From Flavobacteriales bacterium (lineage in GTDB: Bacteria; Bacteroidota; Bacteroidia; Flavobacteriales; UBA7312): a DNA stretch of 35,730 nt. Shown here in pieces: positions 1,968 through 23,000 of the stretch (positions are counted from its first letter, which is position 1; each line of letters starts with the position of its first letter). The notes under the pieces are model-generated. The model was given only the letters and a program-made list of their open reading frames with translations, was not told where the DNA came from and searched no databases. Made by a program: the position numbers and the translations under genes. The DNA lies in contig PAYK01000010.1 of assembly GCA_002714805.1 (NCBI GenBank), forward strand, positions 3,540 through 39,269, given 5' to 3'.

Positions 1968-1989
1968 ATTTTTGTTTTTACAGTATGGA

Positions 1990-1997
1990 CAAAAATA
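1990..1997 (-). promoter_or_regulatory. Putative -7 promoter element for purL
   Basis: The minus strand reads TATTTTTG, a full match to the Bacteroidota -7 consensus TAnnTTTG. It ends 22 nt before the purL ATG, giving a leader of roughly 18 nt. I see no clear TTG-type -33 box at the usual spacing, so the assignment rests on the -7 match and position alone. Confidence 0.5.
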
Positions 1998-2062
1998 AGT
2001 ATATCACTCATAAAAACGACTAAAAACAAATGGCTTTTTAAAAAGTTTTCAAGAATATCTGA

Positions 2063-3703
2063 CTAGCTTACAATATGACCATCTTTATCATACCATGTCG
2101 TATAGTTATCCTTATATAAACGCTCCACTTCATTTCGCTTTATCTTCATCGATGGCGTAAGGAGGTTGTTTTCTATAGTCCACTCTTTGTCCAGTACAAC
2201 AATTTTCTTCAAACGTTCGTGAGATTCAAACTTAGGGTTAACAATGTTTAATGTGGTTTCTAAACTACCATAGACATCTTCAACTGGTCTACTCTTACCA
2301 TATTCAGAAAGTGTGATTAAGGCAATAGGCTGAGGCAATCCTGTTCCGACTACACAGACTTGTTCTATATTTTTGTTGGCAGACAACTTCATCTCAATAG
2401 GTGCTGGAGCAACGTATTTAGCTTTTGAAGTTTTGAATAAATCTTTAACTCTACCTGTTATCTTCAAATAGCCTTCAGCGTCTATATGACCTTCATCACC
2501 CGTATGCAACCAACCGTCTTTGATAGTATCTTGAGTTTGCTTATCCTCTTTGTAATATCCGTCCATCAAAGCGACGTGCTTAATCAAGATTTCATTATCT
2601 TCACTTAACTTCACTTCACAATGGGGCAAAGCTTTACCAACATAGCCAAACTTAATACCATCGTTGAGTGTAACGTGAGAATAACAGCAATTTTCTGTCA
2701 TCGCATAAGCCTCTTGTATTGGAATACTTAAACGCTCAAACCACTTGAGTGTAGATACTGGCGTAGGTGCTGCTCCTGTAAAAATATTTCTAGCTTCCTG
2801 CAGTCCTAAACCAGACTTTATCTTTTTCTTAATTAGTGATGAAACCAAAGGAATAGACAGTAAAACGTTTAACTTTTTCTGTGGCAATTTGCCCAATATT
2901 CCTTGTTGGAATTTAGTCCATATTCGAGGCACTCCTAAAAATGCTGTTGGCTTGGTATCGGCTAAATTTTGTGCAAAAGTGTCCAAGCTCTCGGCAAAAG
3001 AAACCATACCACCAGAATACAAACTTCCCATTTCTACTAACAAACGCTCAGCTATGTGACATAAGGGTAAGTATGAGAAGAAACGCTCTTCTGTTGCCAA
3101 TCCTAAAAGCGGCACGGCATTAGAAGTTGCAAAAGAAAAGTTATAAAACTTATGCATAACCCCTTTTGGCATGCCAGTAGTACCTGAAGTATAAATGATG
3201 GTAGCCAATTCGTTGGGCTCTCGAACAACATTCTCGGTCATAGGCTCGACATCTTTTATCAAATCGTCCCAAACAGGATAACCCTCTTCACTATAAAAAG
3301 GAAAGGCTATACAAGGTAAATCTTCAGGAACACCGGGGCGCATACTTTCAAAATCGTCTAACTTACCCACGAATAACAATTTGGCCTCACTGTGCTCTAA
3401 AATTTGTGTGATACTCTCTGCTTTTAGATTGGGATACAAAGGCACCGAAACGTGTCCAGCCATCATAATAGCTAAATCGGAAATAATCCAATGGGCACAA
3501 TTTTTAGATAGAGTAGCTATTTTACTGTTGGCAGGAAAATCCAAAGATTTTAAATAAGCCGCCATCTTTCTGATTTCTGTAGCAGTTTCCGACCATGTCC
3601 AATGGTGCCATTCGCCATTAATGGGTTGGCGCATATATAATTTGTTGGGCGTTTCTTTCTCCCAATGGTAAAACATCTCTAGTGGTGACTTATACTCTTG
3701 CAT
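2063..3703 (-). CDS. Long-chain acyl-CoA synthetase (AMP-forming, FadD/FAA-like)
   Basis: A 546-residue ANL-superfamily adenylating enzyme, expected to activate free fatty acids to acyl-CoA via an acyl-adenylate. The phosphate-binding loop YTSGTTGMPKG is at residues 171-181. YAMTENC follows as the A5 motif, then GWLHTGDEG (A7), GRVKDLFKTSKAKYVAP (A8) and a C-terminal PSMKIKR carrying the usual catalytic lysine. Length and the LFKTS form of A8 fit the long-chain group found widely in Bacteroidota, rather than acetyl-CoA synthetase. It has no signal peptide and should be cytoplasmic or peripheral to the membrane. It lies between two purine genes on the same strand, but gaps of 95 and 281 bp and its own promoter at 3726-3758 suggest it is transcribed alone. 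The fatty-acid chain length cannot be read from the sequence. Confidence 0.93.
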   Translation of the reverse strand: MQEYKSPLEMFYHWEKETPNKLYMRQPINGEWHHWTWSETATEIRKMAAYLKSLDFPANSKIATLSKNCAHWIISDLAIMMAGHVSVPLYPNLKAESITQILEHSEAKLLFVGKLDDFESMRPGVPEDLPCIAFPFYSEEGYPVWDDLIKDVEPMTENVVREPNELATIIYTSGTTGMPKGVMHKFYNFSFATSNAVPLLGLATEERFFSYLPLCHIAERLLVEMGSLYSGGMVSFAESLDTFAQNLADTKPTAFLGVPRIWTKFQQGILGKLPQKKLNVLLSIPLVSSLIKKKIKSGLGLQEARNIFTGAAPTPVSTLKWFERLSIPIQEAYAMTENCCYSHVTLNDGIKFGYVGKALPHCEVKLSEDNEILIKHVALMDGYYKEDKQTQDTIKDGWLHTGDEGHIDAEGYLKITGRVKDLFKTSKAKYVAPAPIEMKLSANKNIEQVCVVGTGLPQPIALITLSEYGKSRPVEDVYGSLETTLNIVNPKFESHERLKKIVVLDKEWTIENNLLTPSMKIKRNEVERLYKDNYTTWYDKDGHIVS

Positions 3704-3725
3704 AGGAACTTGTATTTAATGGCTT

Positions 3726-3758
3726 CAAATATAAACTTTTTACAAAACCAATTTCAAA
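3726..3758 (-). promoter_or_regulatory. Promoter of the acyl-CoA synthetase gene
   Basis: On the minus strand a TTTG box (3755-3758) is followed after 21 nt by TATATTTG (3726-3733), close to the Bacteroidota consensus spacing of a -33 TTTG and a -7 TAnnTTTG. The -7 element ends 22 nt before the ATG at 3703. It is the best-formed promoter pair in the window. Confidence 0.6.
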
Positions 3759-3859
3759 GCCGCATTTATTTCTGTCCATGTATTGCCTTCAACAAAAGCA
3801 GATTGAAAAAAAAGAGAGCAATATAATATTATGAATCCAACAATAAGTAAGATTTTCAT
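3740..3859 (-). CDS. Possible 39-residue membrane peptide
   Basis: A minus-strand frame from ATG at 3859 to TAA ending at 3740 encodes MKILLIVGFIILYCSLFFQ and a short tail with GNTWTEINAAL. The first 20 or so residues are strongly hydrophobic, like a signal anchor or a very short secreted peptide. A TAAATTTG element at 3876-3883 sits just upstream, and the purE terminator (3928-3960) separates it from purE, so it could be a stand-alone gene. Against it, the 3' end overlaps the promoter of the acyl-CoA synthetase gene, and a 40-codon frame can arise by chance in AT-rich DNA. I recognise no family. Confidence 0.3.
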   Translation of the reverse strand: MKILLIVGFIILYCSLFFQSAFVEGNTWTEINAALKLVL

Positions 3860-3875
3860 AAAATAGGATTGAATT

Positions 3876-3883
3876 CAAATTTA
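3876..3883 (-). promoter_or_regulatory. TAAATTTG -7-like element
   Basis: The minus strand reads TAAATTTG, a full match to TAnnTTTG, 17 nt ahead of the small frame starting at 3859. No -33 partner is obvious. It matters mainly as support for transcription of that small frame or for a second start upstream of the acyl-CoA synthetase gene. Confidence 0.35.
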
Positions 3884-3927
3884 GTAATCTATTTAATAAA
3901 TACTCACGCATTACTCAAAATTTTCAT

Positions 3928-3960
3928 AAAAAAAGGGCTCAAGAACTTAATCTTGAACCC
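3928..3960 (-). terminator. Rho-independent terminator downstream of purE
   Basis: On the minus strand a 10-bp stem GGGTTCAAGA / TCTTGAGCCC (one T-G wobble), with a 6-nt loop, is followed directly by seven T. It begins 25 nt after the purE stop codon and is orientated to end the purE transcript. On the plus strand the same stem has a C-A mismatch and is not followed by a comparable T run, so it is directional. Confidence 0.85.
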
Positions 3961-3984
3961 ACATTAAATTGTAATCTAGTGTAA

Positions 3985-4497
3985 CTACTGCACTCTGAAG
4001 TCAAATTTTTCGCTAGCCAAATCTTGGTTGGCTTTAACGATTTTTTGCTTCATGTTCATCTTAAACTCAACCATTCTTGAGTGTAGAGCATCATCAGAAG
4101 TTGACAAAATTTGTCCTGCTAAGATACCAGCATTGTAGGCTGCATCTAGTCCTACAGTTGCAACTGGAATACCAGGAGGCATTTGTAAGATAGATAATAT
4201 ACTATCCCAACCGTCAATGGATATAGATGAACGACAAGGAACACCAATAACTGGCACTGTAGCAAAGGCTGCTACTACCCCTGGCAAATGAGCCGCGCCG
4301 CCTGCACCGGCAATAATAACTTTAATGCCACGTGCTTGAGCATTAGTGGCAAACTCCTCCACCTTCTCAGGCACACGGTGTGCTGACAAGGCATTAATCT
4401 CAAAAGGAATTTGCATACTGTTTAAAAAATCTGCGGCTTTGCGCATTACGGGCATATCCGATGTACTACCCATTATTATACTTACTACTGCTTTCAT
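3985..4497 (-). CDS. purE: N5-carboxyaminoimidazole ribonucleotide mutase (class I PurE)
   Basis: A 170-residue protein of normal class I PurE size. It converts N5-CAIR to CAIR in de novo purine synthesis; PurK, which makes the substrate, is not in this window. The N-terminal GSTSDMPVM loop (residues 10-18), the SAHRVPEKV segment around residue 40 and the AGGAAHLPGVVAA motif are all intact. These form the nucleotide and carboxylate site, including the conserved histidine of SAHR. It is transcribed divergently from hpt across a 149-bp gap containing a palindrome (4602-4616), and ends at a clear terminator. The start at 4497 directly precedes the canonical beta strand, so no upstream start is needed. 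Confidence 0.97.
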   Translation of the reverse strand: MKAVVSIIMGSTSDMPVMRKAADFLNSMQIPFEINALSAHRVPEKVEEFATNAQARGIKVIIAGAGGAAHLPGVVAAFATVPVIGVPCRSSISIDGWDSILSILQMPPGIPVATVGLDAAYNAGILAGQILSTSDDALHSRMVEFKMNMKQKIVKANQDLASEKFDFRVQ

Positions 4498-4523
4498 TGT
4501 ATTTTGTTACTAAATTAATCTTG

Positions 4524-4531
4524 CGAATTTA
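4524..4531 (-). promoter_or_regulatory. Putative -7 element for purE
   Basis: The minus strand reads TAAATTCG, one mismatch from TAnnTTTG. It ends 26 nt before the purE ATG. The divergent hpt gene has the identical octamer at a similar place (4626-4633). Confidence 0.4.
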
Positions 4532-4601
4532 AAAAAAAGAGAGAATATATTTATAAAAAAGAAATTAAGATTAAGTTTAATCACGTAAGCAAATATGAAT
4601 T

Positions 4602-4616
4602 GCCCTATATTAGGGC
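4602..4616. promoter_or_regulatory. Candidate operator: GCCCTA-TAT-TAGGGC palindrome
   Basis: A 15-bp inverted repeat with perfect 6-bp arms and a 3-nt centre lies in the purE/hpt divergent intergenic region. It sits 9 nt upstream of the putative hpt -7 element, between the -33 and -7 positions, where a repressor would block initiation. Its GC content stands out from the very AT-rich surroundings. It has no following T run and so is not a terminator. Which protein would bind it is unknown. Confidence 0.4.
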
Positions 4617-4625
4617 TAATTATTG

Positions 4626-4633
4626 TAAATTCG
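4626..4633 (+). promoter_or_regulatory. Putative -7 element for hpt and the downstream gene run
   Basis: The plus strand reads TAAATTCG, one mismatch from the Bacteroidota -7 consensus, ending 13 nt before the hpt ATG at 4647. The predicted transcript start falls in a second small palindrome, CAAATATTTG (4635-4644), immediately ahead of the start codon. This would serve the whole coupled run of genes down to aroA. Confidence 0.45.
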
Positions 4634-4646
4634 CCAAATATTTGCA

Positions 4647-5177
4647 ATGGTACAACTACACGATAAAACCTTTGAACCTTACCTTTCGGAATTTGAAATT
4701 CGAGAAATTGTAAAGGATATGGCTTATAAAATGGGAGTTTTAAAAAATGAAAAGCCCCTATTTATTATCATTTTGAAAGGTTCTTTTATTTTCGCTTCTG
4801 ACTTAGTGAAAGCCCTCGATTTTGATGTCGAGCTATGTTTTATGCAGCTCAATTCTTATGATGGAACAAAAAGCAGTGGCAAAATCAAAGAAATTATGGG
4901 AATTTCTAAGCAAATTAAAGATCGAACATTGGTAGTTGTAGAAGATATAATAGATACTGGAAATACATTAGAATATCTCAACCAACACCTATTGGCTGAA
5001 CAACCAAAAAAAATATATTACTCTAGTTTATTACTTAAAGCTAGTGTTTACAAAAAAACTATACCTATTGACTTTGTAGGAAAAGAAATAACCAACGAAT
5101 TTGTAGTAGGATATGGATTAGATTATAAAGAATTAGGTAGGACTTTAACACAAATTTATAAACTCAAAATCTCATAA
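4647..5177 (+). CDS. hpt: Hypoxanthine phosphoribosyltransferase
   Basis: A 176-residue type I phosphoribosyltransferase that salvages hypoxanthine (and often guanine) to the nucleotide using PRPP. The PRPP-binding signature LVVVEDIIDTGNTL is at residues 95-108, with the paired acidic residues of the family. LKGSFIFASDL near residue 44 is the usual flexible-loop/substrate segment, and the C-terminal FVGKEI and VVGYGLDYKE match the purine-contacting region. It is the first gene of a nine-gene run and is followed after one base by adk, a natural pairing of purine salvage with adenylate kinase. It diverges from purE, so salvage and de novo genes share one regulatory region. Confidence 0.96.
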   Translation: MVQLHDKTFEPYLSEFEIREIVKDMAYKMGVLKNEKPLFIIILKGSFIFASDLVKALDFDVELCFMQLNSYDGTKSSGKIKEIMGISKQIKDRTLVVVEDIIDTGNTLEYLNQHLLAEQPKKIYYSSLLLKASVYKKTIPIDFVGKEITNEFVVGYGLDYKELGRTLTQIYKLKIS

Positions 5178-5178
5178 T

Positions 5179-5754
5179 ATGCTTAATATCGTAATATTTG
5201 GACCTCCAGGTGCAGGAAAAGGTACACAATCTCAGTTACTTATAGACCAATTTAACTTGATACATCTATCTACCGGGGATATTCTAAGAGGTGAAATTGC
5301 TCAAGGCACTGAACTTGGCATAAAAGCCAAAAGTATTATGGATAGAGGCGATCTCGTTCCTGACGAAGTAGTAATTGGAATGATACGATCTATCTTGGAA
5401 AAAAATCCGAATGCCAAAGGCTTTATCTTCGATGGCTTTCCCAGAACTACTGTTCAAGCCGAATCTTTAGATCAAATGTTAAACGAACTTAATACTTCAA
5501 TTTCTACCATGCTATCATTAGACGTAGACGTCGATGAGCTGACCAAAAGACTATTAGAACGCGGCAAAAGTAGTGGTCGAGCAGACGATGCTAATGAATC
5601 TATCATAAGAAATCGTATTAAAGAATATAACAAAAAAACTGCGCCGTTAAAAAAGTTTTATGCTAAACAAAATAAATTGCAATCCATTACAGGTGTAGGA
5701 AGTGTTGACTCAATTTATACTAAAATTTGTGAAGCTATAGACCAAATCAAATGA
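5179..5754 (+). CDS. adk: Adenylate kinase (short form)
   Basis: Adenylate kinase interconverts ATP + AMP and 2 ADP. The 191-residue protein has the P-loop GPPGAGKGT at residues 8-16, an AMP-binding LSTGDILR segment near residue 31 and DGFPRT near residue 85. The LID region ([14 protein letters not shown]) is short and has no zinc-binding cysteines, which makes this the short-LID type and explains the length below the roughly 215 residues of long-LID enzymes. The start follows the hpt stop by one base, and its stop overlaps the obg start in ATGA. The full set of catalytic arginines appears present (FPRT, RGKSSGR, RNRI). Confidence 0.96.
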
Positions 5755-6749
5755 AAGTTAAAAATTCCAACTTTGTCGATTATGTCAAAATATTTTGCCG
5801 TTCAGGCAAAGGTGGAGCGGGCTCTGCCCACTTTTTAAGAGATAGAAATACTGCTAAAGGTGGACCTGATGGTGGTGACGGTGGTCGTGGAGGTCAAATT
5901 ATCATTAAAGGTAATGACCAAATGTGGACATTACTTCATCTCAAATACCAAAAACATCTTTTTGCTGAACACGGCGGATCTGGAAGTGGCAACAAAAAAA
6001 TTGGTAAAGACGGACAAAGCAAAACCATACAAGTACCCTTAGGTACTGTGGCAAAAAATGCCGAAACAGGAGAAATCCTATTCGAAATTACAGAACATCA
6101 GGAGGAACAAATTTTGCTAGAAGGCGGTAAAGGTGGAAGGGGAAATGTACACTTTAAATCCCCTACCAACCAAACACCTCGTTATGCTCAACCCGGAATG
6201 GATAGTCTTGAAGGTTGGTTTATTCTCGAATTAAAAATACTTGCCGATATAGGCTTAGTCGGTTTTCCCAATGCTGGTAAATCCACACTTCTTTCCTTAG
6301 TGTCTGCAGCTAAGCCAGAGATTGCCAACTACGCCTTTACAACACTTGTGCCTAATTTGGGTATTGTCTCCTATCGTGATGAGCGTTCTTTTATAATGGC
6401 TGATATTCCCGGTATCATAGAAGGTGCTGCAGAAGGCAAAGGCTTAGGATTACGTTTTTTAAGACACATAGAAAGAAACTCAACTTTATTATTTCTTGTC
6501 CCTGCTGATAGTGATGACATCCTTAAAGAATACAATATCCTTCTAGGTGAATTAAAGAAGTATAATCCCCAACTTTTAGATAAAAACAGAATATTGGCTA
6601 TCAGTAAATCCGATATGCTAGACCAAGAACTAAAAGATGAAATAGCTCAGGATTTTCCTAAAGATATGATATGTCTTTTTATCTCGTCTGTTGCTCAGCA
6701 AGGACTAATGGAAATGAAAGATGCGATTTGGCAAAAATTGAATGAATAA
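5751..6749 (+). CDS. obg: GTPase Obg (ribosome assembly)
   Basis: A 332-residue Obg/CgtA GTPase, which acts in late 50S subunit assembly and stress control. Residues 1-160 form the glycine-rich Obg fold ([27 protein letters not shown]). The G domain follows with G1 GFPNAGKST (171-179), the switch TTLVPNLG, G3 DIPGIIEGA and G4 as SKSD in place of the common NKxD. It lacks the extra C-terminal domain of some orthologues, as is normal for short Obg proteins. The gene overlaps adk by four bases at its start, and its stop overlaps the next start as TAATG, so translation through adk-obg-PAP2 is probably coupled. Confidence 0.96.
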
Positions 6750-7288
6750 TGGAGTGGCTCATTGAATTAGATAAAAATTGTTTTCATCTGATAAATAATG
6801 CAGGGTCATCTACCTGGGATAATCTTATGCTTTTTGCTAGTCATAAATTGTCTTGGATACCTTTATACATTCTTTTAGTTTATTTAATCGTTAAGGAAAA
6901 GGGCAAAGAAAGTATTTGGATTTTAGTAAGCGTAGGTTTAGTTATTGCTAGTTGCGATCTTGGCAGTGTACATCTTTTTAAAAATACTTTTCAGCGTTTG
7001 CGACCTTGTCATTTTCTAGATGAAGTACGACTAGTCTCTGAAAGATGTGGTGGACAATATGGTTTTATTTCTTCTCACTCTTCTAATGTTTTTGGCTTAG
7101 CCTTAGTTGTCAGTAAACTTATTAATAAGAAGTTTTTATTTATAGGCTTATTTATTTGGGCGGCTTTAGTTTCATTCTCCAGAGTATATCTTGGAGTTCA
7201 CTATCCATTGGATATTTTAGGTGGTATGTTATGGGGAACTATTGTTGCTTTAATTATCATATCTCTTCATAAAAAATTTAGGAAATGA
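6749..7288 (+). CDS. PAP2-family membrane phosphatase
   Basis: A 179-residue integral membrane protein of the type 2 phosphatidic-acid phosphatase superfamily, which removes phosphate from lipid substrates such as undecaprenyl pyrophosphate or phosphatidate. The three family motifs are complete: K78 to R85-P86 (KNTFQRLRP), the SSHSS motif with H110, and SRVYLGVHYPLD with R145, H151 and D155. Hydrophobic segments near residues 36-48, 56-70, 112-122, 128-142 and 157-172 fit a polytopic protein with the active site on the outer face. The gene overlaps obg by one base and the following 50-residue gene by four. The lipid substrate cannot be told; C55-PP recycling is an inference. Confidence 0.9.
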   Translation: MEWLIELDKNCFHLINNAGSSTWDNLMLFASHKLSWIPLYILLVYLIVKEKGKESIWILVSVGLVIASCDLGSVHLFKNTFQRLRPCHFLDEVRLVSERCGGQYGFISSHSSNVFGLALVVSKLINKKFLFIGLFIWAALVSFSRVYLGVHYPLDILGGMLWGTIVALIIISLHKKFRK

Positions 7289-7437: not shown

Positions 7438-9038
7438 AAAAGATCATATTAGTGTTATGTGTTATGTTTTGGGGTATTTCTAAATCTCAAGAAAAACCTA
7501 AACTTGTTGTAGGAATAGTAGTAGATCAAATGCGATACGATTACATCTATCGTTTTTGGAATCAATTTGAAGAAAATGGCTTTAAAAAATTAGTTAATGA
7601 AGGATATTTTTTAAGAAATACACACTATAATTTTACACCAACCTACACAGGCCCTGGACACGCAAGTATATTTACAGGTACTACCCCTTCTGTACATGGA
7701 ATAATTGGTAATAATTGGTACAACAAGTCTGATGGCTTATCTGTATATTGTGCTGGTGATGGTAATTCTAATACTATATGTGATTGCGAAAACCACATAG
7801 ATGTAGAATCTAAAGAAGGTAAAATGTCTCCCCATCGTATGCTTACAACAACTTTTTCAGACGAACTAAAATTATTTAGTTCACAATCAAAAGTATTCGG
7901 AATTTCTATAAAAGATAGAGGTGCAATACTTTCAGCTGGACATACTGCAAATGGGGCCTTTTGGATGAGCAAAAGTGGAGAATGGATTTCTAGTTCATAT
8001 TATTATGAAGAATTACCAAAATGGTTAATAGAATTTCAACAAAATAAACCTGCTACTAGCTACTTCAAAGGCGCTTGGAAAGGAAGAGGTTTTGGTTACC
8101 CTATGGATAGCCTATTAGCAAGTAAAGGACCAGCATCTGTAAAAAGTACTCCTCAAGGAAATACCTACCTAAAAGACTTAGCCATTGAGCTAATTAAATC
8201 AGAAGAATTAGGAAAGGATGATATTACAGATGTATTGACATTAAGTTTTTCATCGACTGATTACATTGGTCATCAATTTGGACCACATTCTCAAGAATTA
8301 GTCGACACATACATTAAATTAGATAAGGATATTGCCGAAATTTTGAATTATATACAATCTAAAATAGGACAAAAAAATACTTTGATATTTCTTACCGCAG
8401 ACCACGGAGTAGTAAGTGTTCCTAATGAATTAAAATCAAGAAAAATACCTGCTGGTTATTTTGATGGATCAAATTTAACTAATGAACTAAATAATTATCT
8501 AATTAAAAGATATGGTAAATTATCTCAACCTAAAGTGTTTGGGGCAAAATTAATTTCTTCAAATAATGAAAACTCATTTGTTCTAAAGTATTCGAATCAA
8601 CAATTCTATTTAAATCATAAATTGATAGAACAACATAAAATTAGCCTTCATGAAATACAGCAATTAGCTTCTGATTACTTAATTGGCTTGGAAGGCATTC
8701 AGAACACATTTACAGCACATCAACTACACCAAAATGAATATCAAGATAAATTTTATTCTCTTATTCAAAAAGGTTATAATCAAAAGCGTTCAGGAGATGT
8801 TATAATTGCTTTGAATTCAGGATGGATTGAGTGGAACTCGCCAACAGGAACAACACACGGCTCATGCTTCAGCTACGATACGCATATTCCTTTATTATTT
8901 TGGGGTAAAGGCATTCAACATGGTGTTTCTGACGAATACATTTCTATCTGTGATATAGCACCTACAGTCAGTACTTTATTAGGTATTTCTTTTCCTAACG
9001 GCTGTACAGGTCAACCCATAAGAAGTATTACCGAATGA
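7434..9038 (+). CDS. pafA: PafA-type phosphate-irrepressible alkaline phosphatase
   Basis: A 534-residue exported phosphomonoesterase of the alkaline phosphatase superfamily. The GTG start is preferred because it gives a clean signal peptide (MKKIILVLCVMFWGISKSQ); the next in-frame ATG would destroy it. Zinc-site and catalytic residues known from Elizabethkingia PafA are all present: D31, the nucleophile T72 in YTGPGHAS, N93, the K160/R162 pair in IKDRG, D276 and H280 in TDYIGH, D323-H324 in TADHG, and H475 in GTTHGS. The K/R pair is characteristic of PafA monoesterases rather than diesterase NPPs. It should liberate phosphate from organic esters in the periplasm regardless of phosphate supply. 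It is coupled by four-base overlaps to the small gene before it and to aroB after it. Confidence 0.9.
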   Translation: MKKIILVLCVMFWGISKSQEKPKLVVGIVVDQMRYDYIYRFWNQFEENGFKKLVNEGYFLRNTHYNFTPTYTGPGHASIFTGTTPSVHGIIGNNWYNKSDGLSVYCAGDGNSNTICDCENHIDVESKEGKMSPHRMLTTTFSDELKLFSSQSKVFGISIKDRGAILSAGHTANGAFWMSKSGEWISSSYYYEELPKWLIEFQQNKPATSYFKGAWKGRGFGYPMDSLLASKGPASVKSTPQGNTYLKDLAIELIKSEELGKDDITDVLTLSFSSTDYIGHQFGPHSQELVDTYIKLDKDIAEILNYIQSKIGQKNTLIFLTADHGVVSVPNELKSRKIPAGYFDGSNLTNELNNYLIKRYGKLSQPKVFGAKLISSNNENSFVLKYSNQQFYLNHKLIEQHKISLHEIQQLASDYLIGLEGIQNTFTAHQLHQNEYQDKFYSLIQKGYNQKRSGDVIIALNSGWIEWNSPTGTTHGSCFSYDTHIPLLFWGKGIQHGVSDEYISICDIAPTVSTLLGISFPNGCTGQPIRSITE

Positions 9039-10045
9039 AAGTAGTTCATAGCTCAACATATGATATAAAAATTGGCAAATGCAGTCTACAAACAATCCAA
9101 CATTCAAGTTATTCAGCAATTGCCATTTTGGTAGATGAACATACTAAAACGAATTGCTTAGATATCTTTCTGAAAGAAAGTCAAATCAATCCAAAGCTAA
9201 TTATTGAAATATGTTCAGGTGAAGAACATAAAAATATTTCAAGTTGTGAGCAAATTTGGCAACAACTGACCAACGCTAAATTTGACAGAAAATCATTACT
9301 CATAAATTTAGGTGGTGGTGTTATTGGCGATATGGGTGGCTTTGCTGCATCTTGTTATAAAAGAGGTATTGATTTCATTCAAGTGCCCACCACTCTACTA
9401 GCTATGGTCGATGCCTCAGTTGGAGGAAAACTTGGAATAGATTTTGACAATTTGAAAAATCAAATCGGATTATTTAAATATCCAAAAGGAGTATACATTT
9501 ATCCTCTATTTTTAAAAACATTGAGCGATAGACAAGTTTTATCAGGATATGCTGAAATCGTTAAACATGCTCTTATTGCTGACAAAAACTATTGTCATAT
9601 GTTAATGGAAACATCAATTGAAAAAATAAATTGGGAAGAAACTATCCATCATTCTATTAACCTAAAAAATGATATCGTTGAATCCGACCCTTTTGAAGAA
9701 AACAAACGTAAAATTTTGAATTTTGGGCATACCTTGGGACACGCCATAGAAAGTTTTTACCTTAAGAAAGAAAAGGACATTCTACATGGTGAAGCTATTG
9801 CTTTGGGTATGTATTTAGAAACTGAGTTATCGCCACTCAATATCGAAAAGAAAAAAGAAATTCAAGACTATTTGAAGTCTAACTTCAATTTAGTGGATTG
9901 TCCATCCTTAAATCAACTCCTACCCTTTCTCAAACACGATAAAAAAAATGAATACGATAACATTAATTTCTCGCTTCTCGACGATATAGGTTCTTGTAGC
10001 TACAATAATGATTTAAGTATAGAGAAAATAAAGGCTATTTTTTAA
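9035..10045 (+). CDS. aroB: 3-dehydroquinate synthase
   Basis: AroB catalyses the second step of the shikimate pathway, closing DAHP to 3-dehydroquinate with NAD+ and a divalent metal. The 336-residue protein shows the nucleotide loop NLGGGVIGDMGGF (91-103), the QVPTTLLAMVDASVGGK segment (116-132), metal ligand E174 in GYAEIVKHA, the GHTLGHAIE motif (231-239) and H251 in LHGEAIALGM. The length is slightly under the usual 350-360, mostly from a compact C-terminal domain. Its start overlaps pafA by ATGA. Two genes downstream lies aroA, so two pathway steps share this transcript. Confidence 0.95.
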   Translation: MKVVHSSTYDIKIGKCSLQTIQHSSYSAIAILVDEHTKTNCLDIFLKESQINPKLIIEICSGEEHKNISSCEQIWQQLTNAKFDRKSLLINLGGGVIGDMGGFAASCYKRGIDFIQVPTTLLAMVDASVGGKLGIDFDNLKNQIGLFKYPKGVYIYPLFLKTLSDRQVLSGYAEIVKHALIADKNYCHMLMETSIEKINWEETIHHSINLKNDIVESDPFEENKRKILNFGHTLGHAIESFYLKKEKDILHGEAIALGMYLETELSPLNIEKKKEIQDYLKSNFNLVDCPSLNQLLPFLKHDKKNEYDNINFSLLDDIGSCSYNNDLSIEKIKAIF

Positions 10046-10072
10046 TGTTATATTTGACATTCAATTGACACT

Positions 10073-10837
10073 ATGCAATCTGCAAAAGAATATCTTATAC
10101 AAGAAGGCTTGAACAAATACATTAAAATTGATGTAAATGCTGATTTTAAAGAAGGTGTATTTGATGCTGTTAGTGGTAAATTAAATATACCATTTCCACC
10201 TGTCGCTGAAGACCTAGCCCGTTTACACCGACTCATGAGAAAAAGAAAAGCATTTACTGTGTTGGAGTTTGGTTCTGGATTATCTACCATAGTAATGGCT
10301 GATGCCTTAAGTAAAAACAAAGCTGACTTTTTAGCTCTTGAGGAAAAACCAGAACTTAGAAACCGATTTATGTTTCAAATTTTTTCTGTTGAATCCGATA
10401 AACAATGGATAGAACATAGCCAATCAAAAATTCCTAAACACTTATTGGAACACGTTAATTTTCATTATTCAGAAATTAAAATAGATACTTTCAATGGTAG
10501 AATTTGTCACTTTTATGACAATTTACCAGATATCGTTCCAGACTTTATTTACCTTGACGGACCTAATCCAAAAGATGTAAAAGGAAATGTGAATGGCATG
10601 ACATTTCAATGCGACGAGCGCACCGTAATGGCAGCAGATCTTTTACTAATGGAGTCTATATTATTGCCGGGTACATTCATTTTGGTCGATGGCAGAACAA
10701 ATAATGCTAGATTTCTTAAAAAGAACTTCCAAAGAAACTTTGAAATGAGCTGGGACAAAGATGGTGATGTAACTAGCTTTGAGTTACAAGAAGAAAGACT
10801 TGGTAAATACAATATTTTAGGCTCTGACTTTTATTGA
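10073..10837 (+). CDS. Uncharacterised protein with class I methyltransferase-like fold
   Basis: A 254-residue protein wedged between aroB (27 bp before) and aroA (6 bp after). Residues 63-72 read VLEFGSGLST, resembling the glycine-rich motif I of SAM-dependent Rossmann methyltransferases. An acidic residue follows the next strand (FLALEEKPE), and DFIYLDGPNP resembles the D-containing motif IV. FILVDGRTNNARFL marks a later strand. There is no signal peptide or membrane segment. A basic linker LMRKRK precedes motif I. The target is unknown: a small molecule, sugar or protein substrate are all possible, and loss of methyltransferase activity is possible too. Position suggests, but does not show, a link to aromatic biosynthesis. 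Confidence 0.7.
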   Translation: MQSAKEYLIQEGLNKYIKIDVNADFKEGVFDAVSGKLNIPFPPVAEDLARLHRLMRKRKAFTVLEFGSGLSTIVMADALSKNKADFLALEEKPELRNRFMFQIFSVESDKQWIEHSQSKIPKHLLEHVNFHYSEIKIDTFNGRICHFYDNLPDIVPDFIYLDGPNPKDVKGNVNGMTFQCDERTVMAADLLLMESILLPGTFILVDGRTNNARFLKKNFQRNFEMSWDKDGDVTSFELQEERLGKYNILGSDFY

Positions 10838-10842: not shown

Positions 10843-12078
10843 ATGGATTTTTTGATTTCACATACTAGTAAATCGATTAATGCTGACCTTATCCTTCCAC
10901 CTTCAAAAAGCATAAGCAATAGAGCACTCATTATTCAGGCTTTATGCCAACCCAAGCCAAAAATTTTAAATCTATCACAATCTAGCGACACTCAATCTTT
11001 AGTACAAGCATTACAGACTACTTCTAAAACTATAGATATTGGCGATGCTGGTACAAGTATACGGTTTATAACTGCCTACCTTAGTCAGCAAAAAGGTAGT
11101 TATATTTTGACGGGTAGTGACCGAATGAAAGAACGTCCCATCGGCCATTTAGTAGAGGCCTTAAATAGCATTGGTGCAGATATAAATTACTTAGAGAAAG
11201 ATGGTTTTCCTCCTTTAGCCATTAATGGAAAAGCTTTAGAAGGAGGAAAATTAGATATTTCTACATCTGTAAGTAGTCAGTTTGTTTCTGCTTTATTATT
11301 AATTGCACCAACACTACAAAAAGGGCTATCATTATCCTTAAAAGGAAAGCTGCTATCCAAACCATATATTAAAATGACCTTGGATATTATGAAGTATTTT
11401 GGCATTCAATCAACTTGGATAAAAAATACAATAAAAGTCGAATCACAAAAGTATATTGCTAAGGATTTGAAAGTGGAGTCAGACTGGAGTGCTTTGGCTT
11501 TTATCTTACAAATTATATCAATAGCTAAATCTGCACAAGTTAGTATATCCGGCCTATCAAAAAATAGTTGGCAAGGCGATATTTATGTTCTAAGTTTATT
11601 TAAAAATTTTGGAATTCAATACGAATTTAAAAACGAAAAACTATTTTTAAGTAATAATAAAGACTTGTTAAGTGGTAATTTCAATGTTAATTTAATAGAC
11701 ACCCCTGATTTGGCCCAAGCCTATTGTTGCTCTCTTTCAGCATTATCAAAATCTGCTAAAATTAAGGGATTAAACAACCTTAAATACAAAGAAAGTCATC
11801 GTCTGAAAGCACTTCATCTTGAATTCAATAAAATAGGACAACTAAGTCGTTATTATGAAGATACAATGGAATTAGAGGCATCTATTCTTCATGCCCCAAC
11901 AGATAGTTTTAATAGTCATAATGATCACAGAATGGCTATGTGTCTTGCCCCTTTTGCTTTACTTTTTGAAATTAAAATAAAAAATGTAGAAGTCGTCAAT
12001 AAGTCTTATCCTAGTTATTGGAATGATCTAAAAAAAATGGGATTTATAATATACCCTCTAACTGACTTAAACAATTGA
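10843..12078 (+). CDS. aroA: 3-phosphoshikimate 1-carboxyvinyltransferase (EPSP synthase)
   Basis: AroA transfers the enolpyruvyl group of PEP to shikimate-3-phosphate. I place the start at the ATG at 10843 (411 residues); a TTG at 10834 would overlap the previous gene and add only three residues. Signatures in order: PPSKSISNR (K22, S23, R27) at the S3P site, GDAGTSIRF for the PEP loop, RMKERPIGHLVEAL, the SSQFVSALLL segment, the catalytic aspartate in IDTPDLAQA, YKESHRLKAL and HNDHRMAM. It is slightly shorter than the common 425-430 residues, but all motifs are intact. The last 35 bp overlap the 3' end of the convergent HAD hydrolase gene, and there is no terminator between them. Confidence 0.95.
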   Translation: MDFLISHTSKSINADLILPPSKSISNRALIIQALCQPKPKILNLSQSSDTQSLVQALQTTSKTIDIGDAGTSIRFITAYLSQQKGSYILTGSDRMKERPIGHLVEALNSIGADINYLEKDGFPPLAINGKALEGGKLDISTSVSSQFVSALLLIAPTLQKGLSLSLKGKLLSKPYIKMTLDIMKYFGIQSTWIKNTIKVESQKYIAKDLKVESDWSALAFILQIISIAKSAQVSISGLSKNSWQGDIYVLSLFKNFGIQYEFKNEKLFLSNNKDLLSGNFNVNLIDTPDLAQAYCCSLSALSKSAKIKGLNNLKYKESHRLKALHLEFNKIGQLSRYYEDTMELEASILHAPTDSFNSHNDHRMAMCLAPFALLFEIKIKNVEVVNKSYPSYWNDLKKMGFIIYPLTDLNN

Positions 12079-13735: not shown

Positions 13736-15030
13736 TTATTGATATATTCTAACATTTGCTCATAAAGATATGACCAACCACTCCATTCTTTGTAATCACT
13801 CCAAGTTTCATTATGCCAAACTGAAATAAAATGACCATTTACATTTTTAATCTCATCAATAATTTTTTGAATATTTGCTAATGCTTCGTTTGGATGTAAA
13901 TTTAGGTAATATTTTAGAGTTGCATCCATTACAGAAAATGGATGAACCTTCAAATTTGTTGATGATTCAACTTCTATATCATAAAAATAAAATGGAGTGC
14001 AAATACTTGCTCTAAATCCTAAATGTGATGCGTAACCCATAGTATAGTCATCAGTAATAGATAGTTCTAAAAGATTTCTATAAGTTTTGGGAATCTCCAA
14101 TTTTAAAAAATGCTGCCTTGAAAGTGTAACTTCTTTTTTTAAAATATTTTCTAAACGATTTTTTTCCAAAGTAAGTATATCAAAACTTTTATTAGAAGCA
14201 TAAGATGGATGTATGCCTATTTTAGCATGGTCGGCTAAGTGTTTAATCAATAATTGAAACTTTCTACTATTAACAGAACAATTTTTATCATTTGTACCAT
14301 AATTAGCCAATAGAAAAAAGTAAACTACATCAACATTATATTTTTCATTAATACTCATGTGATCTTCAAAAGTATCATATGGATCTGATAATTTTCCTAA
14401 TAATGTGTTTTTCCTTTCCTCTATGGCAACTTTATCTAAATTGAAAGCCGATTTTATAAATGATGCGACAGTTCTTACAAAACCTTTTTCTAAAAAATAA
14501 TACGCATTATCTACGTCTATAGTCGATTGATAAGAAAATTTATTGTGTGGAAATTCTAATGAGGGAAATTTCATTTTGAAAATATTTTTTAGCTCTTCAA
14601 CCCATAAATTAATTAGAGGACGATGTAAAAAATTATTTTTAAAAGCTAAGCTTTCTTTAGCATCAAAACGTTCGTATTTATCTTTAATATGAGGTAAATA
14701 TTCTTCATAACGAGACACCAAATAAAATGAAGCTGAAAATATATCAAATGGCAAAATAGAATCTTTGATTTTAAAGAAAATAGGTAATTCATTCCATTTA
14801 TCAAAAATTATTTCTTGATCTGAAATACCCCTTTCGGACAACAACCCATAAGCATTAATGAAAAATTCATTTTCTAATTGTATTTTAGAATAGTTTAGTT
14901 TGGGACCTGAAAAATTTTGAAAAAAAACTATGTCTTCAGAAAGATCATAATCTATATTTAATATAGAATTAAAAATCAGTTCAAAACTGTATTGAATTCT
15001 GCTTGTAATTTTTGGAGTATAAATTAGCAT
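13732..15030 (-). CDS. Polysaccharide deacetylase-family protein
   Basis: A 432-residue protein of a Bacteroidota group with a roughly 130-residue N-terminal domain followed by a NodB-like deacetylase barrel. The barrel begins at STIDVDNAY near residue 170, where the aspartate pair would bind the metal. GIHPSYAS near residue 273 supplies the conserved histidine, and the C-terminal SVWHNETWSD gives the late histidine. There is no signal peptide, so the protein is probably cytoplasmic and acts on a lipid-linked or intracellular precursor rather than on mature wall. It shares a four-base overlap with the FemAB-like gene. Its function is likely carbohydrate de-N-acetylation; the substrate is unknown. 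Confidence 0.8.
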   Translation of the reverse strand: MLIYTPKITSRIQYSFELIFNSILNIDYDLSEDIVFFQNFSGPKLNYSKIQLENEFFINAYGLLSERGISDQEIIFDKWNELPIFFKIKDSILPFDIFSASFYLVSRYEEYLPHIKDKYERFDAKESLAFKNNFLHRPLINLWVEELKNIFKMKFPSLEFPHNKFSYQSTIDVDNAYYFLEKGFVRTVASFIKSAFNLDKVAIEERKNTLLGKLSDPYDTFEDHMSINEKYNVDVVYFFLLANYGTNDKNCSVNSRKFQLLIKHLADHAKIGIHPSYASNKSFDILTLEKNRLENILKKEVTLSRQHFLKLEIPKTYRNLLELSITDDYTMGYASHLGFRASICTPFYFYDIEVESSTNLKVHPFSVMDATLKYYLNLHPNEALANIQKIIDEIKNVNGHFISVWHNETWSDYKEWSGWSYLYEQMLEYINK

Positions 15031-15139
15031 CTAAAGCTTGTAATAGTCTTAAAAAGCTAATTTAAAGTCTTTTGTTTAACAATAAGATGTTTTTATTATG
15101 ATTTTTTTGAGAATAATGAGAGTAATAAACTTAAGTTCA

Positions 15140-15391
15140 TTATAAACTATTAACATGTTTTGCTAATTTTGATTTTAGATTAGCAGCTTTATTTTTATGA
15201 ATAATATTTCTTTTTGTTAATTTATCAAGCATTGACTCTAGAGTAGGAAGTAATGCTATTGCTTCTTTCTTATTTGAAGTAGCCCTAAGTTTTCTCATAG
15301 CATTACGAGTTGTTTTGTGAAAATAAGAATTTGCAGCATTTCTTTTTGCCGATTGTCGTATTCTTTTTTTTGCTGACTTATGATTAGCCAT
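15140..15391 (-). CDS. rpsT: 30S ribosomal protein S20
   Basis: An 83-residue, lysine/arginine-rich protein beginning [18 protein letters not shown], the standard S20 opening, followed by the helical [14 protein letters not shown] and the C-terminal [21 protein letters not shown]20 binds 16S rRNA early in 30S assembly. The -7 element TACATTTG at 15423-15430 gives a leader of about 30 nt. It stands alone, with a 109-bp gap to the deacetylase gene. Confidence 0.97.
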
Positions 15392-15422
15392 AATGTTATA
15401 AATTTTCTGTTTTAAAAGAGGG

Positions 15423-15430
15423 CAAATGTA
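15423..15430 (-). promoter_or_regulatory. -7 promoter element for rpsT
   Basis: The minus strand reads TACATTTG, a full TAnnTTTG match, ending 31 nt ahead of the rpsT ATG. No convincing -33 box is seen 19-22 nt further upstream. The element lies just past the stop of the small frame at 15443-15616. Confidence 0.55.
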
Positions 15431-15442
15431 TTAATTTATTTA

Positions 15443-15616
15443 CTAAAAATGATTATTTCTAATTAAAAAAGTAATTTTGATATCATTTAGAATCGAATTG
15501 CTCTGACCATTTCTCTTTATACTAGCGGACCAATGAATGTTTTTAAATGCAAACCCAAAGATTTTAAAATATGTTTTGGCTCCATTTTTTGAAGTTATTA
15601 TTTTAAAATTTGACAT
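15443..15616 (-). CDS. Possible 57-residue orphan peptide
   Basis: In the 282-bp gap between rpsT and the M42 peptidase gene, the minus strand has a 58-codon frame from ATG at 15616 to TAG ending at 15443. The product is basic and mixed in character (it contains NGAKTYFKIFGFAFKNIHW and SIKRNGQSNSILND), with no hydrophobic helix and no signal peptide. It matches no family I know. It ends 13 bp before the rpsT -7 element, and its start lies 24 bp from the opposite-strand -7 box at 15640. No TAnnTTTG element was found ahead of it. It could be a chance frame or decayed gene; confidence is low. Confidence 0.3.
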   Translation of the reverse strand: MSNFKIITSKNGAKTYFKIFGFAFKNIHWSASIKRNGQSNSILNDIKITFLIRNNHF

Positions 15617-15639
15617 TTAACAAATTAAGTATATTTTAT

Positions 15640-15647
15640 TAGATTTG
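15640..15647 (+). promoter_or_regulatory. -7 promoter element for the M42 peptidase-ilvE operon
   Basis: TAGATTTG matches TAnnTTTG in full and ends 26 nt before the ATG at 15674. A TTTG occurs upstream, but at 27 nt rather than the usual spacing near 20. It probably drives both the peptidase gene and ilvE, which are 4 nt apart. Confidence 0.5.
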
Positions 15648-15673
15648 CTGTCCTAATTTCACTAATAAAAAAA

Positions 15674-16765
15674 ATGAAAAAGAAACCATCTATTATCACC
15701 AAAAAATCAATAACATTTTTAGAGAAATACTTAAATAATGCCTCGCCAACTGGATTTGAAAGTGAAGGACAAAAGTTATGGTTAAATTACATTAAACCAT
15801 ACATCGATGATTATTTTATTGATACTTATGGAACAGTTGTTGGCGTTATAAATCCAAAAGCAAAATACAAAGTTGTAATCGAGGCTCATGCTGATGAGAT
15901 ATCTTGGTTTGTTCACTATATAACTAAAGATGGTTTTATTTATTTAAAAAGAAATGGTGGTAGTGACCATCAAATTGCTCCTTCCAAAAGAGTAAATATT
16001 CACACAAATCAAGGGGTTGTTGATGCAATATTTGGCTGGCCTGCTATTCATACTAGACATGGAAAGGATGAAAAAGCTCCTAAACTAGATAATATTTTTT
16101 TAGATTGTGGGTGTAAATCAAAAGAAGAAGTTGAAAAACTTGGTGTTCATGTGGGCTGTGTGGTAACATATAAAGACGAATTTATGTTACTTAATGATAC
16201 ATTTTATGTTGGAAGGGCATTAGATAATAGAATTGGTGGATTTATAATTGCTGAAGTAGCAAGACTAATTAAAAAGAATAAAATTAAATTACCATTTGGT
16301 CTGTATATAACAAATTCTGTACAGGAAGAGGTTGGATTAAGAGGAGCACAAATGATTACAGAAAGAATACGACCTGATGTAGCTATTGTAACAGACGTTT
16401 GCCATGACACACAAACACCAATGATAAATAAAATTAAGCAAGGTGATTTATTCTGCGGAAAAGGCCCTGTATTAACGTATGGCCCTGCCGTTCAAAACAA
16501 CCTATTGAAATTGATTATTGACACTGCTAATCAAAATAAAATTCCTTTTCAAAGAGCAGCAGCATCTAGAGCAACAGGTACAGATACTGATGCATTTGCA
16601 TACTCAATAGGAGGAGTTGCCTCTGCGTTAATCTCTCTTCCTCTAAGATATATGCATACTACTGTTGAAAGTGTTCATAAAGAAGATGTTGAGAATGTTA
16701 TAAAATTAATTTATAATTCACTGATTAAAATAGAAGATAGACACGACTTTCGCTACATTAAATAA
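15674..16765 (+). CDS. M42-family glutamyl aminopeptidase-like metallopeptidase
   Basis: A 363-residue member of peptidase family M42, dinuclear-metal aminopeptidases that form large tetrahedral assemblies and clear short peptides. Metal and catalytic residues are in place: H72 with D74 in AHADEI, D184 in GRALDNRIGG, the E218-E219 pair in QEEVGLRGA, D241 in TDVCHD and H328 in RYMHTT. There is no signal peptide, so it acts in the cytoplasm. The family has sometimes been labelled endoglucanase, which is unlikely here given the full peptidase site. It is followed after four bases by ilvE, linking peptide breakdown to amino-acid transamination. The substrate residue preference cannot be read. Confidence 0.92.
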   Translation: MKKKPSIITKKSITFLEKYLNNASPTGFESEGQKLWLNYIKPYIDDYFIDTYGTVVGVINPKAKYKVVIEAHADEISWFVHYITKDGFIYLKRNGGSDHQIAPSKRVNIHTNQGVVDAIFGWPAIHTRHGKDEKAPKLDNIFLDCGCKSKEEVEKLGVHVGCVVTYKDEFMLLNDTFYVGRALDNRIGGFIIAEVARLIKKNKIKLPFGLYITNSVQEEVGLRGAQMITERIRPDVAIVTDVCHDTQTPMINKIKQGDLFCGKGPVLTYGPAVQNNLLKLIIDTANQNKIPFQRAAASRATGTDTDAFAYSIGGVASALISLPLRYMHTTVESVHKEDVENVIKLIYNSLIKIEDRHDFRYIK

Positions 16766-20008: not shown

Positions 20009-23000
20009 CTACATATTTCTTCTATACTGACCACCTACTTCAAATAGAGCAGTCGTTATTTGCCCTAGTGAACAAATTTTTGCTGCCTCCATCATTGCTT
20101 CAAAAATATTTTGATTTTGTAAAGCTGAATGTTTCAGACTCTCTATCTGATTTTTAGAATCTGATGAATTGTTTACTATTAATTGCTGAAGCATTTTTAT
20201 CTGATATTCCTTTTCTTCTTGTGTAGCTCTAATTACTTCAGAAGGGATAATAGTTGGAGAGCCTTTAGAATTCAAAAAGGTATTCACTCCAATGATTGGG
20301 AATTCACCAGTATGCTTGAGCATTTCATAATGCATAGACTCTTCTTGAATCTTTGAGCGTTGATACATAGTTTCCATCGCGCCAAGTACACCACCCCTCT
20401 CTGTAATCCTTTCAAATTCAAGCAATACGGCTTCTTCAACTAAATCAGTTAGCTCCTCAATAATGAAAGAACCTTGCAAAGGATTTTCATTTTTAGCTAA
20501 ACCTAACTCTTTGTTAATTATTAGCTGAATTGCCATGGCTCGTCTTACAGAGTCTTCTGTGGGTGTAGTTATAGCCTCATCATAAGCGTTAGTGTGTAGA
20601 GAATTACAATTATCATAAATAGCGTATAGAGCTTGAAGGGTTGTTCTAATATCATTAAAATCAATCTCCTGAGCGTGTAAAGAACGACCAGAAGTTTGAA
20701 TATGATACTTTAACATTTGTGCACGTTCATTAGCTGCATAACGTTGCTTCATAGCCTTAGCCCAAATACGTCTGGCTACACGCCCAATAACAGCATATTC
20801 AGGGTCAATACCGTTTGAGAAAAAGAAGGATAAGTTTGGACCAAACTTATTAATATCCATACCGCGACTCAAATAGTATTCCACATATGTAAAGCCATTA
20901 GCTAGTGTAAAGGCTAGTTGGGAAATTGGATTTGCACCAGCCTCTGCAATATGATAACCCGAAATAGATACTGAATAGAAGTTTCTTACCTCTTTATCTA
21001 TAAAATATTGTTGAACATCACCCATCATTCTAAGGGCAAATTCAGTGGAAAAAATACAGGTGTTTTGTGCTTGATCTTCTTTTAGAATATCGGCTTTAAC
21101 AGTTCCTCTTACAACTTTTAATGTATCGCACTTAATTTTGTTATATACATCTGTTGGTAAAACTTGATTGCCAGTAACTCCTAACAACATCAAACCAAGT
21201 CCATCATTACCCTCTGGCAATTCTCCTTGATAAGATGGACGTTCCTTGCCTTTATAGATAATATCTATTTTTTTCTGAACTTCTTTTTCTAGCTGATTTT
21301 CTTTAATATATAATTCGCATTGTTGATCCACAGCAGCATTCATAAAGAAAGCTAATAACATAGGGGCAGGGCCATTAATAGTCATAGATACAGATGTGGA
21401 TGAGGAGCATAGATTAAACCCTGAATAAAGCTTTTTAGCATCGTCTAGACAACAGATGGAAACTCCTGCATTACCTATTTTTCCATAAATATCAGGTCTA
21501 TAATCTGGGTCATTTCCATAAAGCGTAACCGAATCGAAAGCTGTGGACAAACGCTTAGCAGGCATTCCTAAACTGACATAATGAAAACGCTTGTTAGTAC
21601 GTTCTGGACCACCCTCACCAGCAAACATTCTAGTAGGATCTTCTCCTTCTCTTTTAAAAGGAAATATACCAGAAGTATAAGGGAATTGGCCAGGCAAATT
21701 CTCTTGTAATTGCCAATGCAATAAATCACCCCAAGACGAATATTTTGGAAGAGATATTTTAGGAATCTGTGAGCCAGATAAAGATTCTGTAAAAGTTTGA
21801 ATAGATATTTCTTTCTTGCGGACTTTGTAAATAAATTTATTTTTTTTGTAAGCTTGTTTTATATCATTCCAACCCTCAATGAGTATCATATTCTTAGGGT
21901 CTAAATCTAGAAATCGTTCATTATAAATAGCTTTTAATTGTTTTTTTAATTGCTCCTTATCCTTAGATTTTGATTGTTCTACAGATTGTATTGAAGCATT
22001 AAGCACATATAACTCTTGAGCAACTATTTTCTGTTGTTCAGCCCAAGCATCATAAGCTCTATTAGTGTCTGCAATTTCAGCTAAATACCTATTTCTCTTA
22101 GGTGGTATTACAAATATCTTTTCAGACATCTCTTTACTTATTTCAAAAGATGAATCTAAAGAAGCACCGGTCTTTTCCACAACTTTATTTATAAGAGCTT
22201 TATAAAGAGAATTAGCGCCAGGGTCATTAAATTGAGATGCTATAGTTCCAAAAACTGGCATTTGATTAACATCAGCTTGAAATAAATTATGATTACGCTG
22301 ATATTGTTTTTTAACATCTCTCAATGCATCAAATGAACCCCTTTTATCAAATTTATTAATCGCTATAATGTCAGCAAAATCTAACATATCAATCTTTTCC
22401 AACTGAGTGGCAGCCCCATACTCTGGAGTCATAACGTATAATGAAGCGTCAGAATGTTCTAATATTTCGGTATCAGACTGTCCTATTCCTGAAGTTTCTA
22501 AAATAATCAAGTCATAATTTGCAGCTTTGAGAATGTCCAAAGCCTTATTGACATGTGCAGACAGTGCTAAATTGGCTTGTCTGGTCGCTAATGAACGCAT
22601 ATAAACACGTTCATTTTTAATGGCATTCATGCGAATTCTATCGCCTAAAAGTGCCCCACCTGTTTTACGTTTTGAAGGGTCAACAGAAATGATAGCTAGT
22701 CGTTTATCACTAAAGTCAATTAAAAAACGACGAACTAACTCATCTACTAGAGAGGACTTACCAGCCCCACCTGTTCCAGTAATTCCCAAAACCGGTGTTT
22801 TTGATTGGTCAGCTAACTTTTTGATAGCGTTTAATTCTTTTTCAGACTCTTTTGGAAAATTCTCAGCAGCAGAAATTAATCGTGCTATATTTTGAATATT
22901 GGATAAGTTATTGATACAATCTTGAACATCTTTACCCGTTGGAAAATCTGATTTTTGAACTAAATCATTGATCATCCCTTGCAAACCCATAGCTCTACCA

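Follow-up and report, generated by a model that had tools for sequence, protein, structure and literature searches.

By its sequence and predicted fold, the 254-residue protein encoded between aroB and aroA of a Flavobacteriales bacterium is a class I SAM-dependent methyltransferase (MT), and it is probably an O-methyltransferase acting on a nonulosonic acid (NulO, i.e., the sialic and legionaminic-type sugars) or on a NulO glycan made for the cell surface. The parts of this reading differ in strength. Methyltransferase activity of the protein is near certain from its motifs and structural model, its action in a NulO-containing pathway is likely, direct action on the NulO itself is probable, and O-methylation has somewhat better than even chances over other chemistry (N-, C- or ester methylation). 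The linkage to aro genes tells only about inheritance.

The methyltransferase gene and its predicted fold

The window, by which we mean the whole stretch of 35,730 nucleotides that was analysed, lies on contig C10 of a 1.67-Mb assembly (18 contigs, 93.67% complete; genome G000). Three of its genes are considered here:

9035..10045, + strand: aroB, 3-dehydroquinate synthase (Pfam); upstream neighbour of MT, genomic host site only
10073..10837, + strand: MT gene, SAM-dependent methyltransferase of 254 aa with a COMT-like predicted fold; proposed NulO O-methyltransferase
10843..12078, + strand: aroA, EPSP synthase (Pfam); downstream neighbour of MT, genomic host site only

The neighbours are identified by the Pfam families DHQ_synthase (5.6e-44) and DHQS_C (2.4e-32) for aroB, and EPSP_synthase (9e-71) for aroA. 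The MT reading frame was translated and has no internal stops, and the uninterrupted product of 254 residues contains both the VLEFGSGLST and the DFIYLDGP motifs, just as the original prediction had described it. The 27 bp which that prediction gave for the distance from the end of aroB (10045) to the MT start were also found, while the 6 bp given for the distance to aroA had to be corrected to 5 bp, as the aroA ATG lies at 10843. The gap between aroB and MT (window positions 10046-10072) contains TATATTTG, which fits TAnnTTTG, presumably the Bacteroidota -7 promoter motif. This sequence is conserved in the gap of G000, G001, G002 and G004 and not in that of G007 (see below for these genomes), and no -33 element to pair with it in the gap was seen by eye. 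Elsewhere in the window, positions 20009-23377 of the reverse strand encode a B12-binding domain, a MeaB GTPase and a methylmalonyl-CoA mutase fused in a single protein.

A protein search found MT in five of the 99 genomes of relatives, the window's own being counted. Four of the carriers (G000, G001, G002 and G004) belong to one genus and the fifth (G007) to another genus of the same family. Identity to the window protein is 92% in G001, 93% in G002, 73% in G004 and 66% in G007, and the gene lies between aroB and aroA in all five genomes, so the tight linkage to aro genes that had been noted for the window holds for every carrier of its family. Such identities between sequences at one and the same aroB/aroA site mean that the MT reading frame is not a chance ORF. 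The aroB gene of G004 (L004, 429-1471) appears as two overlapping ORFs in different frames, a break that is either genuine or due to misassembly.

The closest Pfam family is PF13578 (Methyltransf_24), which matches 14 of the 16 scanned MT-family members at E<=0.01, yet the window protein itself, for which it is the best Pfam match, scores 24.1 bits and stays under the curated cut-off of 26.3. In the NCBIfam scan nothing came close to a cut-off (MnmC2 reached 21.3 of 136 bits), the PHROGs scan gave no match, and the search of PDB sequences with the protein and with its profile gave no significant match. The matches to DUF5666, Ribosomal_L27_C, MGMT_N and Methyltransf_28 (Pfam) and to MnmC2, all of them below cut-off, were taken as chance. 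MT is indeed a methyltransferase without an assigned family, as first proposed.

The AlphaFold2 model of MT, built from a 13-row alignment, has a pLDDT of 81.3 and a pTM of 0.83, with residues 22-41 unsure. Foldseek matched the model to 101 PDB chains at E<=1e-3, and the best 50 of the 101 are methyltransferases, mostly of the COMT/CCoAOMT type. Among the matches listed in VIA-align, the best Z is 15.5 (8c9v; rmsd 2.6, 170 residues aligned), and among the best 50 the COMT folds (e.g., 8c9v, 7cvu and rat COMT) resemble MT with Z of 14.1-15.5 over 163-182 residues. The methyltransferase fold that had been suspected from two motifs is thus supported by a COMT-like model and by a motif I that does not vary among 19 aligned rows, which include the window's MT. 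Three segments of the protein are of interest here:

10256..10291, + strand: motif I region T62-I73, TVLEFGSGLSTI; E65, G67, G69 and S71 invariant in 19 aligned rows
10541..10564, + strand: DFIYLDGP, D157-P164; D157, Y160, D162 and P164 invariant in 19 rows
10679..10717, + strand: ILVDGRTNNARFL, I203-L215; contains D206 and G207

The motif I region (T62-I73) we take, by comparison with class I methyltransferases, to be the SAM-binding site. Going by motif, D162 is presumably the first metal-ligand Asp of COMT and D206 (within ILVDGRTNN) the second one, whereas the place of the third ligand, an Asn, would be taken by G207. Both D162 and D206 are invariant, position 207 is Gly in all 18 close rows, and in a profile alignment with a Niastella COMT, which is not significant, Asp-Asn stands opposite the Asp-Gly of MT. 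Two thirds of the COMT metal triad (Asp, Asp, Asn), mapped by motif, are therefore conserved, and with Gly in place of Asn, MT may or may not need a metal. Thus, MT is similar to COMT in its fold, in motif I and in the two Asp residues at the metal-ligand positions assigned by motif, and differs from it in overall sequence (14-21% identity), in the Gly at the third-ligand position and in its genomic company. The substrate cannot be read from the fold alone.

The neuABC cassette within the window's family

No NulO genes are adjacent to MT at the window's own locus. Three of the carriers, G002, G004 and G007, have a tight neuA-neuB-neuC cassette unlinked to the aro operon, which is located beside pheS in G002 and G004 and beside FemAB/GNAT-like and umuDC-like genes in G007. 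According to NCBIfam, NeuB of G002 passes the N-acetylneuraminate synthase equivalog (402 vs 399.65), its NeuC passes the hydrolysing 2-epimerase equivalog (402.3 vs 235.9), and its NeuA is closest to PseF, below the cut-off. Both MT and neuABC are present in these three genomes, G007 being 54% complete, and both are absent in three other genomes of two lineages (G006, G005 and G008). In G006, which is 99% complete, aroB and aroA are 3 bp apart without MT, and the genes found on the far side of the cassette in G002 come directly after pheS, i.e., the cassette is absent at this site. In G005 (74% complete) and G008 (60% complete) aroB overlaps or abuts aroA, and no NeuB was found. The FemAB/GNAT-like gene was rejected as a marker of the cassette, as it is also present in G006, which has no cassette.

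The remaining genomes of this group could be read only in part. G003 has the neuC end beside pheS at a contig end (assigned by eye); MT was not found in this assembly, in which aroA is truncated by the end of its contig, short of the insertion site. Neither MT nor the cassette was seen in G009 (66% complete), in which neither site is readable. NeuB was not found in the assemblies of G000, the window's own, and G001, and neither pheS nor the FemAB/GNAT-like gene had a match in them. Since both assemblies seem to lack the cassette region, the missing NeuB is uninformative rather than supportive. Judging by G002 and G004, the organism of the window presumably has neuABC.

The tree of AroB and AroA, midpoint-rooted and with G007 on a long branch, is ((G007,(G005,G008)),(G006,(G004,(G000,G001,G002)))), with a support of 100/99 for the middle branch and of 86/91 for the grouping of G004 with G000, G001 and G002. 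The identity of pheS to that of G002 (96 for G003, 93 for G004, 86 for G006, 82 for G007 and 77% for G008) gives an order that agrees with this tree. Carriers and non-carriers are interleaved on it, which implies two changes, either one old gain followed by two losses or two gains, the latter being less likely because the insertion point is the same. At most two events therefore stand behind the co-occurrence of MT and neuABC, and in one of the two lineages there are incomplete genomes. Four further Flavobacteriales (G031, G037, G053 and G071) also have this neuABC cassette and no MT, thus MT is not required for the cassette. Two other ideas were dropped. Co-transfer of neuABC with MT was rejected because the NeuB proteins of the family are closest to those of other Flavobacteriales (75-79%) and at most 61% identical to NeuB of the outside loci described below, and the 'surface carbohydrate' family TIGR04396 was rejected as a shared partner within the window's family because none of 14 genomes had a match over the cut-off (one match was sub-threshold).

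Homologues in other phyla and the genes around them

Short patterns, scanned against 84,980 species genomes, gave 12 loci, 10 of them beyond the window's family. These belong to Acidobacteriota, Cyclobacteriaceae, Uhrbacteria, two Gammaproteobacteria, Desulfobulbaceae, a Deltaproteobacterium, LCP-89, Nitrosomonas and Leptolyngbya, and are 51-62% identical to MT over the best segment. In profile searches, the window's phylum had MT in 2 of 395 genomes (G000 counted), the phyla of G107 and G108 in 2 of 398 and 2 of 292 (seed counted in each) and the phylum of G103 in 2 of 297 (seed counted, the non-seed match being very remote). Such low counts indicate that the MT family is rare. Members from different phyla intermingle in its tree, and those of the window's family group as a single clade (96/94); this points to horizontal spread and then to descent inside the window's family. 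L097 (genome G1226) was left out of the counts and of the second tree as very remote (E 6.5e-10, end branch >6); it does sit in a NulO locus, with one NeuB-like gene 834 bp and another 5340 bp away. Two matches on Mesorhizobium plasmids (E 0.2, 24% identity), one of which (H2) has surroundings without an annotated NulO gene, were not accepted as relatives. The Nitrosomonas eutropha homologue (L036/L088/L090, G107:C2:53911-54674) is broken, with internal stops and in two pieces, and adjoins a PLD-like gene (PLDc_2); a similar gene lies near the gammaproteobacterial homologue of L031.

Adding the homologues of G298, G520 and G1129 to the 10 loci of the pattern scan, we obtained 13 bacterial homologues outside the family, whose flanks were examined over 0.6 to 10 kb a side, a range in which NulO genes may be undercounted. 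Genes for NeuB, Epimerase_2 and CTP_transf_3 (Pfam) were found together in L030, L031, L037, L084, L085 (a wider stretch of L035) and L096, those for Epimerase_2 and CTP_transf_3 in L032 and L033, and that for NeuB in L095. The distance between NeuB and MT is 12 bp in L030, 86 bp in L096, 1304 bp in L037, 1835 bp in L095, 2035 bp in L031, 3086 bp in L084 and 6929 bp in L085, and in G103, the genome of L032, NeuB lies about 6.5 kb from MT on the same contig. Altogether, NeuB is found within 10 kb of MT in 8 of the 13 homologues, and NulO genes are near in 9 of them. No NulO genes were counted in the flanks examined of the other four (L028, L029, L034 and L036), where one flank of L029 is only 621 bp long; an Epimerase_2 gene 3406 bp from L029 was not accepted as a NulO gene, being WecB-like in our judgement (Pfam and BLAST). 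Anywhere in the genome, NeuB was found in nine of the ten outside genomes of the pattern scan, G104 being the one in which none was found.

For a randomly placed gene, the probability of lying near NeuB in at least 8 of 13 cases is about 3e-13 if three NeuB copies are assumed in each of G298, G520 and G1129, a weak null, because glycan genes are clustered in any case. As a control we used FkbM-type methyltransferases (PF05050) of the same ten genomes, and none of the 20 lies within 10 kb of NeuB (the nearest at 13 kb). The comparison of 5/10 for the MT family with 0/20 for FkbM gives a one-sided Fisher probability, calculated by hand, of 252/142506 (about 0.002). This control is small and rough: its 20 FkbM genes are spread over only six of the ten genomes, two of the genes come from G104, where no NeuB was found, and of the five genomes that have MT and NeuB close together only G106 (one gene) and G108 (three) contribute any.

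Some of these loci have further features. A second methyltransferase-like gene lies between MT and a NulO gene in L037 (6681-7562, Methyltransf_11-type) and in L084 (9552-10406, weak UbiG-type), and the glycans of these two loci may accordingly bear more than one methyl group. The MT homologue of L085 has two neighbours at 13995-16430, which Pfam assigns to CTP_transf_like and to a TPP enzyme. By eye this pair resembles phosphonate synthesis genes (phosphonopyruvate decarboxylase), and the NulO locus may make a phosphonate sugar too. A homologue with 46% identity, counted separately from the 13 bacterial ones, was found on the virus-labelled contig L038 (IMGVR_UViG_3300014656_000376, 225-6783), 453 bp from a gene for a NeuC-like epimerase (Pfam) and directly upstream of a terminase-like gene, with portal and GroES genes (PHROGs). 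A phage-borne modification of a sialic-acid type glycan is possible from this gene order. The search of phage records for MT gave no match, and a second viral scan with a wider MT profile returned only the L038 contig again.

The company of NulO genes could also be read in another way. Loci for Bacteroidota protein O-glycans often contain NulO genes as well, and MT might act on another sugar (e.g., a deoxyhexose or a uronic acid) of such a glycan or of a surface polysaccharide. Homologues do occur among general surface-glycan genes (Polysacc_synt_2, Asn_synthase, sulfotransferase and surf_polysacc TIGR04396), they could cluster in polysaccharide loci on account of a sugar that accompanies the NulO in its glycan, and for Shewanella flagellin the accessible part of PMC3765264 places the O-methyl groups, hypothetically, on a residue attached to the NulO and not on the NulO. 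We nevertheless consider action on another sugar rather unlikely, since the NulO genes are the recurrent neighbours (9/13) while the remaining genes vary, since MT matches the presence of neuABC within the window's family, and since glycan-type FkbM methyltransferases are, in the rough control above, in no case within 10 kb of NeuB (0/20).

That MT modifies an intermediate of the shikimate pathway, or another aromatic one, is very improbable. The aroB-MT-aroA order in 5/5 carriers of the family would suit this, as would the nearness of the fold to catechol and caffeoyl-CoA O-methyltransferases, a COMT-like fold being fit for aromatic hydroxyls. However, neither aroA nor aroB was found in the flanks examined of the 15 outside loci (the 13 together with L038 and L097), three family members join aroB to aroA without MT, and homologues of 56-62% identity sit in NulO loci of other phyla. 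The aro linkage of homologues, by which a shikimate role was judged, is confined to one bacterial family (5 of 99 genomes), and its lack in the flanks examined outside this family led us to reject that role. The aro neighbourhood, which the original prediction had regarded as informative, is not so for function. Among the options offered there (an unrelated passenger, or modification of an aromatic intermediate or of a glycan), the evidence speaks for the glycan, and more closely for NulO, with MT carried along in the aro operon. Neutral carriage or decay of MT is hardly credible, for although its distribution is patchy and horizontally spread and the Nitrosomonas copy is broken, 43 residues are invariant in 18 aligned rows, and dN/dS (NG86) in four pairs is 0.06-0.16 (0.122, 0.104, 0.163 and 0.062), below the 0.16-0.28 of aroB (0.161, 0.160, 0.282 and 0.228) and the 0.17-0.21 of aroA (0.214, 0.169, 0.170 and 0.189) in the same pairs, with no more than 170-176 codons compared in three of the four aroB pairs and with saturated dS in the G004 pair.

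Proposed role and known methylation of NulO

The NulO substrate and the position, the O-methylation, and the cellular place and stage of MT action are what we infer. In the reading we prefer, that of a NulO O-methyltransferase, MT would be a cytoplasmic SAM-dependent enzyme of COMT-like fold with SAM bound in the usual class I pocket. The methyl group would be passed to a hydroxyl of the NulO, either as the CMP-sugar or after its transfer as a glycan residue, before export. The most likely acceptor would be the sugar made by NeuABC, which is of the Neu5Ac type, on its way to a surface glycan. The aro operon would be a landing site and not a functional partner, and may give MT steady co-transcription. 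More tentatively, and with some doubt on our side, the homologues may be bacterial sialic-acid/NulO O-methyltransferases of COMT-like fold that form a family of their own and move horizontally. They would produce O-methylated sialic acids on the surface glycans of Flavobacteriales and of other, scattered bacteria, with a phage copy beside a NeuC-like gene.

Methyltransferases encoded together with NulO synthesis genes have been reported before. PtmH of Campylobacter, a homologue of ORF 8 of the Legionella LPS locus, makes CMP-Leg5AmNMe7Ac according to the accessible parts of PMC3766260 and PMC13317340. It resembles the outside homologues of MT, as does ORF 8, in being encoded with NulO synthesis genes and would differ from MT in methylating an acetimidoyl amino group, a distinction drawn from the published description of the enzyme. 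In the literature surveyed, as far as the accessible parts of the sources go, a step has been assigned to a single NulO methyltransferase, namely this N-methyltransferase (PtmH/Legionella ORF 8). Two others of unclear role are described in the parts of the papers at hand, one upstream of pseF in a NulO locus of Clostridium butyricum (PMC13317340) and one, SO_3264 with 395 aa, in the flagellin-modification cluster of Shewanella (PMC3765264); by these descriptions both are similar to the outside homologues of MT in lying in NulO-glycan clusters, and SO_3264 differs in size. The type of reaction proposed here resembles the SAM-dependent sialate 8-O-methylation of starfish, an animal enzyme activity compared by description and referred to, as 1998 enzyme work, in the available portion of PMC6994554. 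As for the phylum of the window, methyl groups are common on Bacteroidota glycans and the stage of their addition is not known, according to the part of PMC12871550 available to us. Among the papers listed on NulO and sialic-acid methyltransferases we recognised no description of the MT family.

Methylation of NulO as such is thus already known, and the MT family would be new to it if the substrate proposed here is right. A candidate methyltransferase together with its likely partner genes makes one step of glycan methylation directly testable. It can also be seen from this case that a tight operon can mislead about function: the aro partners of MT mislead, and its homologues in other phyla point to a likelier pathway.
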